Assembly: GCA_004210455.1 (NCBI GenBank)
Contig: SEFA01000007.1
Location: 1-64,000 of the forward strand
Length of the DNA stretch: 64,000 nucleotides
Reading direction: 5' to 3'
From: Rubrivivax sp.
Lineage (GTDB): Bacteria > Pseudomonadota > Gammaproteobacteria > Burkholderiales > Burkholderiaceae_C
Shown: positions 40,894 through 43,720 of the stretch, one piece after another
How the letters are laid out: the number at the start of each line of letters is the position of its first letter
How positions within the stretch are numbered: position 1 is the first letter of the stretch
The notes under the pieces: model-generated
What the model saw: only the letters and a program-made list of their open reading frames with translations
Database searches by the model: none
Told to the model about the DNA's origin: nothing
Made by a program: the position numbers and the translations under genes

Positions 40894-41099
40894 GCGGGGA
40901 GTCTCCTGATGGGTGGCTGACGTCCGGTCCCCGCTTGTGGCGAGGCCGTGTGCCTTGGCTGCCGTCGCGCCAAGTATGGCGGCGCGCGGAAAACGCAGGG
41001 AACAGTGTAGGAAACAACGCCCGGCGAGTGTTTGCTAGTTCTGCGCCGGAGACCGTCGTTTGAGCAAGAATCTTTCCCAGAATGACGAAAGGGATTCGA

Positions 41100-41708
41100 A
41101 TGGCATCGAAAAATACAGCCTCAGGGAAAACCATGAGGGCGGCGGCGGGCTCCGCGGGCGGCGACGACGGGGTGGACCGGAGTGCCGATCGAAGCGATGA
41201 CGCGGGCGGATCCGGCGCTCCGGCAAGCGGCGAGCTCGACCGCTATCACGTGGCGATCCTGGCGGAGCTGCAGCGCGAGGCGCGGCTCTCGAACGCGGAG
41301 CTGGCGACGCGGATCGGGTTGTCGCCGGCGCCGACCTGGCGCCGGGTGCGGTGGCTGGAGGAGCAGGGGTTCATCACGGGCTACCGCGCCGAGATCGACC
41401 GGCGCCGGCTCGGCCTGGGCGTGCTGGCCTTCGTGCGCGTGGACGCGGATCGCAACAACGGCGCGGCGACCAAGCAGCTGGAGGAGGCGATCCGGCAACT
41501 GCCGGAGGTGATCGCCTGCCACTACATCAGCGGCGCCGGCACCTTCGAACTGGAGGTGATGGCCACCGACCTGGATGCGTTCAGCCGGTTCTCCATCGAC
41601 ACGCTGCTGAACCTGCCGAACGTGAAGGACATCCACACGAGCTTCTCGCTCGGGGAGGTGAAGGCAGGCGGGGCGCTGCCACTCGGGCATCTGAAGCCCA
41701 AGGGATAG
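41100..41708 (+). CDS. Lrp/AsnC family transcriptional regulator
   Basis: This 202-residue regulator has a disordered Ala/Gly/Asp-rich N-terminal extension of about 42 residues. An AsnC-type winged HTH follows (LDRYHVAILAELQREARLSNAELATRIGLSPAPTWRRVRWLEEQGFI), then the ligand-binding RAM domain (VLAFVRVDADRNN, VIACHYISGAGTFELEVMATDLDAF, NLPNVKDIHTSFSLGEVK). GAAAGGG upstream favours the ATG at 41100 over that at 41082. It is divergent from the indolepyruvate oxidoreductase, which suggests it controls aromatic amino-acid or 2-oxo-acid breakdown. Confidence 0.92.
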   Translation: MASKNTASGKTMRAAAGSAGGDDGVDRSADRSDDAGGSGAPASGELDRYHVAILAELQREARLSNAELATRIGLSPAPTWRRVRWLEEQGFITGYRAEIDRRRLGLGVLAFVRVDADRNNGAATKQLEEAIRQLPEVIACHYISGAGTFELEVMATDLDAFSRFSIDTLLNLPNVKDIHTSFSLGEVKAGGALPLGHLKPKG

Positions 41709-41719
41709 CGCTTGAGCTG

Positions 41720-41902
41720 TCAGCGGCCGAGCCTATTGAAAAGCCACGACAAAACCGCCAGAGTGATTGACATCAAGAGTCCGAAGAGCACGCACGTTGC
41801 GGGTTCCGGCCATGCTCCAGTCGTGATCTTGTGTCCGGACGTCCAAATGAGCAGCGTCAGGAGCGTCGTGCAGTGACGCCATTTCCTTGGAAGTTGTTTC
41901 AT
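41720..41902 (-). CDS. small membrane protein (60 aa), possible immunity protein
   Basis: This 60-residue protein has two hydrophobic segments (TTLLTLLIWTSG and TCVLFGLLMSITLAVLSWLF) and a basic start. AAGGG lies directly upstream of the ATG. It sits 20 bp behind a 95-residue membrane protein and in line with a double-glycine-leader peptide gene. The whole stretch has clearly lower GC than the rest of the window. By position it could be an immunity or accessory protein; no family is recognised. A competing frame covers the same DNA but has less protein-like composition. Confidence 0.5.
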   Translation of the reverse strand: MKQLPRKWRHCTTLLTLLIWTSGHKITTGAWPEPATCVLFGLLMSITLAVLSWLFNRLGR

Positions 41903-41922
41903 CCCTTGAGTCTCGAGATAGG

Positions 41923-42210
41923 TCAGGCGCCAAACCAGCCAGCGCAGAAAGCGCTGATGAGCAGGACAAGTGCGAGAAAGTTGAGAGCAGCGCCAATTGC
42001 CGAAATCTCAAATCGTTCCCGTCCCTTGAGAAACTTTCCGAGGGCAATGTTCCTGGATGGATTGGATAGGTTCGCGGCTGAAATCAGCCCGGCGCATGCC
42101 GATAGGGCGGCGAGCCCCATGGCTGGTCGTTGATCGGAAAACCAATACCAAGCCGACGAGAAATTGAGAATGGCGATTGCAAGGCAGACGACGCGGAAGA
42201 TGTTGTCCAT
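41923..42210 (-). CDS. small membrane protein (95 aa), possible immunity protein
   Basis: This 95-residue protein has three predicted membrane helices: FRVVCLAIAILNFSSAWYWF, AMGLAALSACAGLISAANL, and ISAIGAALNFLALVLLISAFCAGWFG. A short basic loop (GKFLKGRERFE) precedes the last helix. It lies 68 bp downstream of a double-glycine-leader peptide gene on the same strand, within a low-GC pocket. Small multi-spanning membrane proteins next to bacteriocin genes are often immunity proteins, which is my working inference here. I recognise no family. Confidence 0.6.
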   Translation of the reverse strand: MDNIFRVVCLAIAILNFSSAWYWFSDQRPAMGLAALSACAGLISAANLSNPSRNIALGKFLKGRERFEISAIGAALNFLALVLLISAFCAGWFGA

Positions 42211-42278
42211 GAGATTGAAGCCTTGAATGGTGTGAGGAAGGCGTCCCTTCCTCGTGTTGCCGACAACTTCAGAAACCC

Positions 42279-42479
42279 TTAGAACAGGTTGTAGTCAGCC
42301 AAGTTGTCGCCCTGGTGTGTGGCCATGTCGGCCAGAACGCCACCGAAGCCATATCCGGCAGCACCAGCGGCCATCACGGCGCCCCATCCCGCGGTGTCGG
42401 CCATGGCGATGGCCAAGGGAGCGAGTAGGGCGATTCCGCCGCTGACCTGTTCAAGTTCGTGTGGTTGGAGTTCTTCCAT
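42279..42479 (-). CDS. double-glycine-leader peptide precursor (bacteriocin/microcin-like)
   Basis: This 66-residue precursor has a 15-residue leader MEELQPHELEQVSGG that matches the ELxxVxGG double-glycine consensus cleaved by C39-peptidase transporters. The predicted mature peptide of 51 residues (IALLAPLAIAMAD...) is Ala/Gly-rich, with small-residue repeats such as MAAGAAGYGFGGVL, and ends in a polar tail DNLADYNLF. This is typical of membrane-active class II bacteriocins. AAGGA is 5 bp before the second ATG (42479) but directly abuts the first (42485), so I use the second. No processing transporter is in the window. Confidence 0.7.
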   Translation of the reverse strand: MEELQPHELEQVSGGIALLAPLAIAMADTAGWGAVMAAGAAGYGFGGVLADMATHQGDNLADYNLF

Positions 42480-42502
42480 ATTCATCCTTCAAACGTTCAA
42501 AA

Positions 42503-42519
42503 GTCGCTGTCCCAGCGAC
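42503..42519. promoter_or_regulatory. 7-bp perfect hairpin with GGA loop upstream of the peptide gene
   Basis: On the minus strand GTCGCTG-GGA-CAGCGAC lies 23 bp before the peptide start codon. TTGACA (minus strand, 42536-42531), a perfect -35 sequence, lies just upstream, though no convincing -10 was seen. A GGA in a loop near a start codon resembles CsrA/RsmA sites. Confidence 0.4.
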
Positions 42520-42660
42520 CAGGGGCGGGCTGTCAAATGACGAGCGGCGGCCCGACATTAAAGGGGACGGAGGATGGATTTAATTGGTAGAAGTTCCATC
42601 ATGAAAATAGGTGGGCGGAAACGTGCGATCTAACTACTGGTGATGGTTGGAAAATAACAA

Positions 42661-42678
42661 GAATCGATTAATCGATTC
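42661..42678. promoter_or_regulatory. perfect 18-bp palindrome, operator candidate
   Basis: GAATCGATTAATCGATTC is a perfect palindrome. It lies 182 bp upstream of the double-glycine peptide start and 151 bp upstream of the divergent exporter gene, in the AT-rich part of a 350-bp intergenic stretch. No other gene is seen in this stretch. Confidence 0.55.
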
Positions 42679-42829
42679 GAGCTAATCCCCCGGTCTGATT
42701 CGTTTATGGCGCGCCGCCGTGATGCGGCATCGCTCTCCGCTGTACCGGTCGCCCTTCCAATCCCCTGTACCGGCTCGGCGAAGGCCGCAGCAGGCATAGT
42801 CGACGATCCCCCTCGCTCCCCCGGCCGCC

Positions 42830-43720
42830 ATGACGCTACCGCTTCGACATTTCCTGCTCGCGCTGTCCGTGGTTGCCATCTGGGGAAGCAATTTCGTGGT
42901 GATCCGCTGGGGCCTGAACGCGTTCCCGCCGCTGCTGTTCGCGGCGCTGCGGTTCACCTTCGCCGCGTTGCCCGCGATGCTCCTGCTGCCGCGGCCGAAG
43001 GTCGGCTGGCGCAACCTCGCCGCGTACGGCGCCTTCGTCGGCGTCGGCCAGTTCGCGCTGCTGTACCTGGCGATGCGCTCGCAGATCTCGCCGGGGCTGG
43101 CCTCGCTCGTCATCCAGACGCAGGTCTTCTTCACGCTGCTGCTCGCCGTGAAGATGAGCGGCGAACGCGTCCAGGGGTTCCAGTGGCTGGCCCTGATCAC
43201 CGCCGCGGCCGGCATCGGCGTCATCGCTTCGCACACCGACGGCACGACCACCGTGCTCGGCCTCGGCATGGTGCTGCTGGCCGCGCTCTGCTGGTCCAGC
43301 GGGAACATCGTCGGCAAGCGTGCCGGCGCCGTGAACATGCTGGCCTATGTGGTCTGGAGCAGCGCCTTCGCCGCGCCCGCGCTGTTCGCGCTGTCGTTCA
43401 TCGTGGAAGGCCCCTCGCAGATGGGCGAGGCGATCCAGAACGCCGGCCTTGGCGCTTGGGGTGCCGTGCTCTGGCAGTCGGTCGGCAACACGCTCTTCGG
43501 CTACGGCGCGTGGAGCTTCCTGTTGTCCCGCCATCCGGCCGCGACCATCGTCCCGATGGCGCTGCTGGTTCCCGTGTTCGGGATGAGCTGCTCCGCGCTG
43601 CTGCTCGGCGAAGGCCTGCCGCCGTGGAAGCTGATGGCCGCGGCGCTCGTGATCAGCGGGCTCGCGATCAACCTGCTGTGGCCGCATGTGCGCGGCGCCC
43701 TCAAGGCTGCGCGCGCATGA
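42830..43720 (+). CDS. EamA/DMT-family transporter
   Basis: This 296-residue protein has ten predicted helices and two EamA repeats, with the typical start HFLLALSVVAIWGSNFVVIRWGL. Further family stretches are PPLLFAALRFTFAALPAMLLLPRP and, near the end of the second repeat, PVFGMSCSALLLGEGLPPWKLMAAALVISGLAINL. It belongs to the drug/metabolite transporter superfamily and is probably an inner-membrane exporter of amino acids or metabolites, similar to the O-acetylserine/cysteine exporter group. Its stop overlaps the start of the next gene (ATGA). Although close to the peptide gene, its GC content is host-like, so I do not link them. Confidence 0.9.
   Translation: MTLPLRHFLLALSVVAIWGSNFVVIRWGLNAFPPLLFAALRFTFAALPAMLLLPRPKVGWRNLAAYGAFVGVGQFALLYLAMRSQISPGLASLVIQTQVFFTLLLAVKMSGERVQGFQWLALITAAAGIGVIASHTDGTTTVLGLGMVLLAALCWSSGNIVGKRAGAVNMLAYVVWSSAFAAPALFALSFIVEGPSQMGEAIQNAGLGAWGAVLWQSVGNTLFGYGAWSFLLSRHPAATIVPMALLVPVFGMSCSALLLGEGLPPWKLMAAALVISGLAINLLWPHVRGALKAARA

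Follow-up and report, generated by a model that had tools for sequence, protein, structure and literature searches.

A double-glycine peptide cassette, probably a bacteriocin locus, in a variable slot between Lrp and EamA genes

What do three small genes in a pocket of low GC encode, and how did they come to lie between a gene for an Lrp/AsnC-type regulator and a gene for an EamA-type transporter? The window analyzed here, a stretch of 64,000 nucleotides, carries the regulator gene at 41082..41708 and the transporter gene at 42830..43720, both on the plus strand and both named by sequence reading. Between them, on the minus strand, a 66-aa precursor gene is followed by genes for predicted membrane proteins of 95 and 60 aa, all within 1,029 bp of 55% GC. 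This pocket, which extends from the Lrp stop to a conserved block upstream of EamA (41709..42737), has a GC content of 55.4% compared with 71.7% for the adjoining 92 bp, and the lowest GC among the 64 1-kb windows of the stretch is that of 42001-43000 (58.5%). The small co-directional trio in a lower-GC pocket described by the original prediction is thereby borne out, with all three ORFs found in place on the minus strand. GC at the three codon positions reveals clear periodicity for the precursor (0.73/0.45/0.70), modest periodicity for the 95-aa ORF (0.55/0.49/0.62) and a weak signal for the 60-aa ORF (0.47/0.52/0.68).

The precursor gene occupies 42279..42479 on the minus strand, with the leader at 42435-42479, the core at 42282-42434 and the stop codon at 42279-42281, an assignment based on the ORF, its leader score and its codon-position GC. 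A likely ribosome-binding site, AAGGA (42485..42489, minus strand), can be read in the sequence 5 nt upstream of the ATG at 42479; an alternative ATG at 42485 would overlap AAGGA, and 42479 is the best start. The resulting leader, MEELQPHELEQVSGG, comprises 15 residues that end in VSGG, and the hydrophobic positions -4, -7 and -12 are read as V, L and L, respectively. Is this a double-glycine leader or merely a resemblance to one? A scoring matrix was derived from 11 double-glycine leaders (5 from the same genome, 6 from relatives) with the window's peptide left out, and it was scanned across 26 sources (the window, 10 stretches of its own genome and 15 of relatives) amounting to 410,202 bases and 21,308 starts of ORFs of at least 30 aa. 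Members of the matrix score high by construction, from which the window's peptide is exempt, being left out. The window's leader scores 29.7 bits, the best start lacking a double glycine among all 21,308 reaches 15.3 bits, and everything above 15.3 bits is a GG peptide. The double-glycine leader is genuine, and the near-ideal leader of the original prediction is confirmed along with the 66-residue length and the Ala/Gly-rich core of 51 residues. The core contains 27.5% Ala and 15.7% Gly, has no Cys and carries a net charge of -4, and glycine makes up 15.2% of the whole 66-residue precursor. An AlphaFold model of a 68-aa form, built from a single sequence (mean pLDDT 69.4), places helices at residues 8-44 and 47-64 with low confidence.

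Does the peptide belong to a known family? The TIGR01847 model of bacteriocin-type signals gives the precursor 12.2 bits (E 4.7), under its cut-off of 15.7, and two other GG peptides of the same genome listed by this model likewise fall under 15.7. Bacteriocin_IIc (PF10439) was matched at E 0.002, with 18.5 bits for the 68-aa form and 16.3 bits for the 66-aa form under a cut-off of 27.1, and Microcin V (MccV, PF17508) at E 0.016, with 16.2-16.3 bits under a cut-off of 27. As a control for such matches, the leader was retained and the core shuffled nine times. Three of the nine shuffled cores exceed the real 66-aa form (16.3 bits) against PF10439, and two of nine exceed 16.3 bits against MccV. 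Because the shuffled cores score as high, these two matches reflect the leader and composition and not a common core, and both were dropped as proof of family. The lactobin A/cerein 7B model (TIGR03949) gives 21.0 bits for the 68-aa form, 21.2 for the 66-aa form and 19.2 in a six-frame search, with a cut-off of 21.5; here, the leader and first part of the core reach 21.2 bits compared with 17.0 for the highest shuffled-core control, above all nine, which hints at slightly more than leader and composition. Lactobin A and cerein 7B represent class IIb, a Gram-positive two-peptide family. The likeness to this family lies in the leader and first core part (21.0-21.2 bits), and the differences are a score under 21.5 and the lack of a second peptide gene in the window's cassette.

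Searches for relatives of the precursor returned matches in 13 of 60 genomes at E <= 0.1 and in 12 of 399 family genomes at E <= 0.01, its own genome being included in both sets. The 11 matches of the larger set outside its own genome were rejected as chance, since translation around each reveals no GG leader. No relative of the precursor was found in the 60 or 399 genomes beyond its own, nor in collections of genome contigs, viral contigs and plasmids, and no PDB entry matches it by sequence at E <= 10. The scans of the contig collections used exact short patterns followed by a tblastn check, a procedure that finds close relatives and that distant ones can escape. On homologues with a conserved GG leader, to which the original prediction had given weight, the outcome is divided: no relative of the core was found, and the leader type and the locus do recur in relatives.

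The two genes that follow the precursor, both on the minus strand, encode candidate immunity proteins. The 95-aa gene (41923..42210) was assigned from its ORF and from hydropathy, which displays three hydrophobic stretches, and its single-sequence AlphaFold model has a mean pLDDT of 60.8. Between it and the precursor gene, an inverted repeat forms a hairpin with a perfect 8-bp stem (42234..42253, minus strand); the folding energy computed for 42205-42285 is -25.3 kcal/mol (z -2.55), with 3 of 200 shuffles equally good, and the hairpin could tune expression of both downstream genes. The 60-aa gene (41720..41902) was assigned from its ORF, hydropathy and comparison with other genomes, and it has one clear hydrophobic stretch and possibly a second helix. 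Neither ORF matches a Pfam or NCBIfam family above cut-off, in agreement with the expectation of two small membrane proteins of no recognized family. Relatives of the 95-aa protein were found in its own genome only among 16 genus genomes and 399 family genomes, and none were found in genome contigs, viral contigs or plasmids. Because no relative of either was found, the core and the 95-aa protein offer no evolutionary test.

Is the locus itself variable? The Lrp gene is present in all 16 genomes of the genus, our own included, and in 9 of 15 relatives, or ten genomes with our own, it adjoins EamA and the neighbors to either side are the same. The remaining six (G007, G012, G003, G009, G011 and G001) have no EamA match above 40% identity in the stretch examined and no motif-based GG peptide in the 3 kb after Lrp. 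The distance from Lrp to EamA is 1,121 bp in the window and varies from 104 bp (G005), 211 (G008) and 333 (G004) through 919 (G002), 966 (G006) and 1,134 (G014) to 1,406 (G015), 1,936 (G010) and 4,290 bp (G013). About 92 bp upstream of EamA can be aligned in all seven relatives compared (G014 and G015 were outside this comparison), and this block (42738..42829, plus strand) marks the right edge of the slot. Because these 92 bp are kept in relatives, the low-GC pocket is therefore the extra DNA. Within the block, CTGTACCGG occurs twice (42740-42748 and 42765-42773) with starts 25 bp apart, and slightly altered copies precede EamA in relatives; the pair looks like an operator.

The ten slots differ in content. 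Four contain a GG peptide and a small membrane protein (three of them with peptides other than ours), three are short and cassette-free, and three contain other ORFs. The two genomes closest by Lrp, G008 (97%) and G005 (96%), have no cassette in the slot. In G006, G002 and G013, the slots encode GG-leader peptides of 94, 90 and 87 aa, oriented as in the window, and each peptide is followed by a hydrophobic protein of 66-73 aa. Compared with the G006 peptide, identity is 52% for that of G013 and 54% for that of G002, and all three cores start with WD or WN. Among the slots with other contents, that of G015 has a 337-aa ORF and that of G014 a 285-aa ORF, both on the plus strand, and that of G010 (L073:5447-7082) encodes a HipA protein (HipA_C, E 6.7e-51) preceded by a small gene that reads as helix-turn-helix, a pair that is likely a toxin-antitoxin system. 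Next to its GG cassette, the G013 slot (L074:3992-7483) encodes a helicase-like protein of 1,163 aa (AAA_11, E 3.6e-12), possibly a defense gene, and no other exporter-sized ORF was seen in the four cassette slots. The cassette-free slots of G008 (L071:7171-7381) and G004 (L076:3613-3945) contain short REP-like inverted repeats of the CCCTCACCC...CTCTCCCGC type. Overall, the cassette behaves as exchangeable cargo, in a slot that elsewhere holds other cassettes, other genes or next to nothing, and we infer that it arrived horizontally.

The window's cassette resembles those of G006, G002 and G013 in the gap it occupies, in strand, in the order of peptide and then small membrane protein, and in a W...GxWP pattern common to the last protein of all four cassettes. 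It differs from them in leader and core and in the 95-aa gene, which only the window has, and its last protein is probably related to theirs. The rationale for this last statement is as follows. Alignment of the 60-aa protein with the three other slot proteins reveals W8, G29, W31 and P32 in all four, at identities of 17-20%. The 60-aa protein obtains 11.3 bits against a profile built from the other three, a score equaled by 1 of 2000 hydropathy-keeping shuffles and 1 of 2000 plain shuffles, and pairwise P-values vary from 0.0005 to 0.08 depending on the partner and type of shuffle. Comparison by hhalign gives E 7e-4 with a probability of just 27%. Moreover, among 38 small hydrophobic ORFs of the stretches it ranks directly below the three profile members, with the next ORF at 3.4 bits. 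When the three-row profile was searched against 399 family genomes at E <= 0.1, a sample in which the genus is represented by five genomes and the three genomes behind the profile are absent, the 60-aa protein was not returned (15 of 51 candidates of its own genome were scored) and chance-like matches appeared in 80 of the 399; the comparisons confined to the slot stretches favor kinship more. A four-member profile searched against the 16 genus genomes recovered the proteins it was built from, plus a weak match in G012 (E 0.039). Common descent of the 60-aa protein with the other slot proteins is likely on these comparisons.

How would such a peptide leave the cell? No C39 transporter lies in the window, as had been reported, and a search of the genome returned eight C39 matches, all on contigs other than that of the window (C81, 110 kb). 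Seven C39-ABC proteins were aligned, and the Cys/His/Asp triad is kept in three of them, those of contigs C148, C105 and C173, in which Pfam recognizes peptidase, membrane and ATPase domains. Triad-bearing exporters are thus present in the genome. The proteins of C49, C34, C144 and C146 have no Cys at the aligned place and were rejected as microcin exporters; a further C39 match is on C183. On C148, the gene before the exporter belongs to the HlyD family (HlyD_3, E 2.3e-15), and on C105 a 416-aa gene after the exporter reads as similar to the HlyD-family gene of C148. The C39-ABC ORF of C173 has 1,225 aa with an adaptor-like N-terminal half, which may reflect a fusion or an incorrectly placed start.

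We consider that the trio is probably a bacteriocin cassette whose peptide functions in the manner of a class II microcin, with export in trans and one or two immunity genes. The bacteriocin-locus reading proposed originally is upheld as the best account of the leader, the adjoining membrane proteins, the C39 exporters elsewhere and the GG cassettes in the same gap of three species. The precursor would be transcribed and translated with its double-glycine leader of 15 residues, an ABC exporter with a C39 peptidase, encoded elsewhere in the genome, would recognize this leader and cut after Gly-Gly, and the 51-residue Ala/Gly-rich, Cys-free peptide would be exported. In sensitive close relatives, the peptide would then most likely depolarize the inner membrane by inserting into it as helices, and the producer would be protected by the 95-aa protein, the 60-aa protein or both. 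Action on the membrane is proposed because the core is hydrophobic, Ala/Gly-rich and helical by low-confidence prediction; many membrane-active bacteriocins are cationic, whereas this core is acidic (-4). For this proposal we count the leader score far above every non-GG start, the candidate immunity genes, the four of ten conserved-flank slots in which a GG peptide and a small membrane protein share a strand, the three triad-bearing C39-ABC proteins (one with an HlyD-family gene before it) and the further GG peptides of the genome, at least five in number and one of them followed by an Rce1/CPBP-like protein. Against it we count the absence of an exporter from the window, with the nearest C39 genes on other contigs, the lack of any relative found for the core or the 95-aa protein, the bacteriocin family and signal models that stay under their cut-offs, the weak codon signal of the 60-aa ORF and the absence of a promoter-like match.

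How does this arrangement compare with known systems? Traits described for class II microcins are a signal of 15-18 residues ending in GG or GA, hydrophobic residues at -4, -7 and -12, a glycine content of 12-26% and a gene near its exporter (PMC11494933, PMC9746304). The precursor has a 15-residue GG signal, hydrophobic -4, -7 and -12 positions and 15.2% glycine, and a C39-ABC protein with a triad is encoded in the genome; it lacks closeness to a C39-ABC exporter. Because this closeness is among the traits listed in PMC11494933, the precursor is not filed as a class II microcin. Microcin immunity proteins are described as 51-216 aa long and usually membrane-located (PMC9746304), a range that includes both hydrophobic candidates of the cassette (95 and 60 aa), and an exporter common to two microcins is stated for two pairs in the same source. 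The cassette thus resembles microcin V and the other class II microcins of Enterobacterales in GG leader, glycine, small size, adjoining small membrane proteins and a C39-ABC protein in the genome. It differs in that no exporter is nearby, its core has no sequence relationship to theirs above chance (MccV 16.3 bits) and its host, to judge from GC and gene content, lies outside Enterobacterales. Another comparison is Moraxella catarrhalis McbC, a short GG-leader peptide directly followed by a 74-aa McbI immunity gene described as having no known relatives (PMC2761928). The likeness, drawn from the published description, is that of a short GG-leader peptide and a small immunity-candidate gene; however, the mcbAB exporter genes stand in the operon and activity and immunity are demonstrated there (PMC2761928), whereas both are predictions for the window's cassette.

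An alternative hypothesis is that the peptide is exported in the same way for a different purpose, as a signal, as a biofilm or surface component, or in programmed autolysis. There is precedent for this, as the Nap peptides of Neisseria, encoded on an acquired island, share features of class II microcins, yet the report on them describes no detectable antimicrobial activity and a role in autolysis (PMC11798529), and proteins with a GG motif are described in biofilm development of Synechococcus (PMC4997328). The Neisseria case means that killing cannot be deduced from the pairing of a GG leader with an immunity-like gene. However, two adjoining membrane genes and peptides that are swapped between species or missing are better explained by conflict than by a conserved signal, and the cassette has no kinase or receptor gene, so that we regard a different purpose as unlikely, though worth weighing. 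It would be more surprising still if the trio had once been a bacteriocin cassette and were by now silent or deprived of a fitting exporter, in the course of being lost. The exporter is unlinked, the slot of the nearest relatives has no cassette, the codon signal of the 60-aa ORF is weak, and no promoter-like match was found (sigma-70-like promoters in 41650-42850: 0 compared with 0.5 expected); yet the three frames are open, the leader and ribosome-binding site look intact, and full-triad exporters are encoded in the genome. That the trio consists of chance ORFs within a non-coding low-GC insertion is highly improbable, since, even with many overlapping ORFs in all frames and no database relative above cut-off for the 95-aa and 60-aa ORFs, the leader score lies far beyond that of every non-GG start, GG peptides occur in the corresponding gap of three relatives and the precursor has codon periodicity.

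Returning to the bacteriocin cassette, we found no relatives of its peptide or of the 95-aa protein, yet the kind is a known one, and the slot with its different cassettes is the more interesting part. We tentatively hypothesize, with somewhat less than even confidence, that the Lrp-EamA gap is a genus-wide exchange slot for exporter-less bacteriocin cassettes, in which the precursor is swapped between species, the GxWP protein is of single ancestry, each change of weapon is accompanied by reuse or retuning of immunity, and dispersed cassettes share a few C39 exporters in trans. Among the matches listed in searches of open-access literature, no paper on such a slot or hotspot was found. The genus carries several leader-sharing cassettes that have no exporters of their own, and a search tied to neighboring exporters would probably miss them; validated unique class II microcins number just 10, mostly from E. 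coli, in the count given by PMC9746304. The slot also offers a natural series (no cassette, the window's cassette and the WD/N type) for strain-against-strain comparison of weapon and immunity and for swapping.

A perfect 18-bp palindrome, GAATCGATTAATCGATTC (42661..42678), lies about 180 bp before the precursor, and no second copy occurs in the window when up to 3 mismatches are allowed; it is a possible operator or a minus-strand terminator-like element. Terminator-like matches number 2 compared with 1.2 expected, and Rfam returns no match in 41500-43000 at gathering scores.

The genome encodes at least five further GG-leader peptides, or at least six with that of the window. On contig C67 (L050:8260-9293), a peptide with the leader MRELELHELELVSGG is followed 17 bp on by a 271-aa Rce1/CPBP-like membrane protein (PF02517, E 5.4e-12), an exporter-less cassette; membrane proteins of the Rce1/CPBP type are known from bacteriocin immunity. 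On C144 (L051:8226-9059), a GG peptide above the TIGR03949 cut-off (25.1 bits) precedes a 179-aa ORF, and on C188 (L127:1501-2039) a very Gly-rich GG-leader peptide, MLRELTDEEIDQVSGG, overlaps a 110-aa ORF; Pfam returns nothing at E <= 0.01 for either the 179-aa or the 110-aa ORF. A profile of the WD/N-type peptides, searched against the 399 family genomes (five of the genus among them) at E <= 1e-5, matched one genome, our own, at this C188 site. On C173 (L043:2967-11167), two GG peptides have similar core starts (D.WAGT..GRAP), one adjoining the C39-ABC ORF and the other about 4 kb on. Finally, in G011 (C22, L037:136-3105) an HlyD-like gene, a GG peptide, a 189-aa ORF and a C39 gene stand in one row, a complete-looking arrangement of low GC3.
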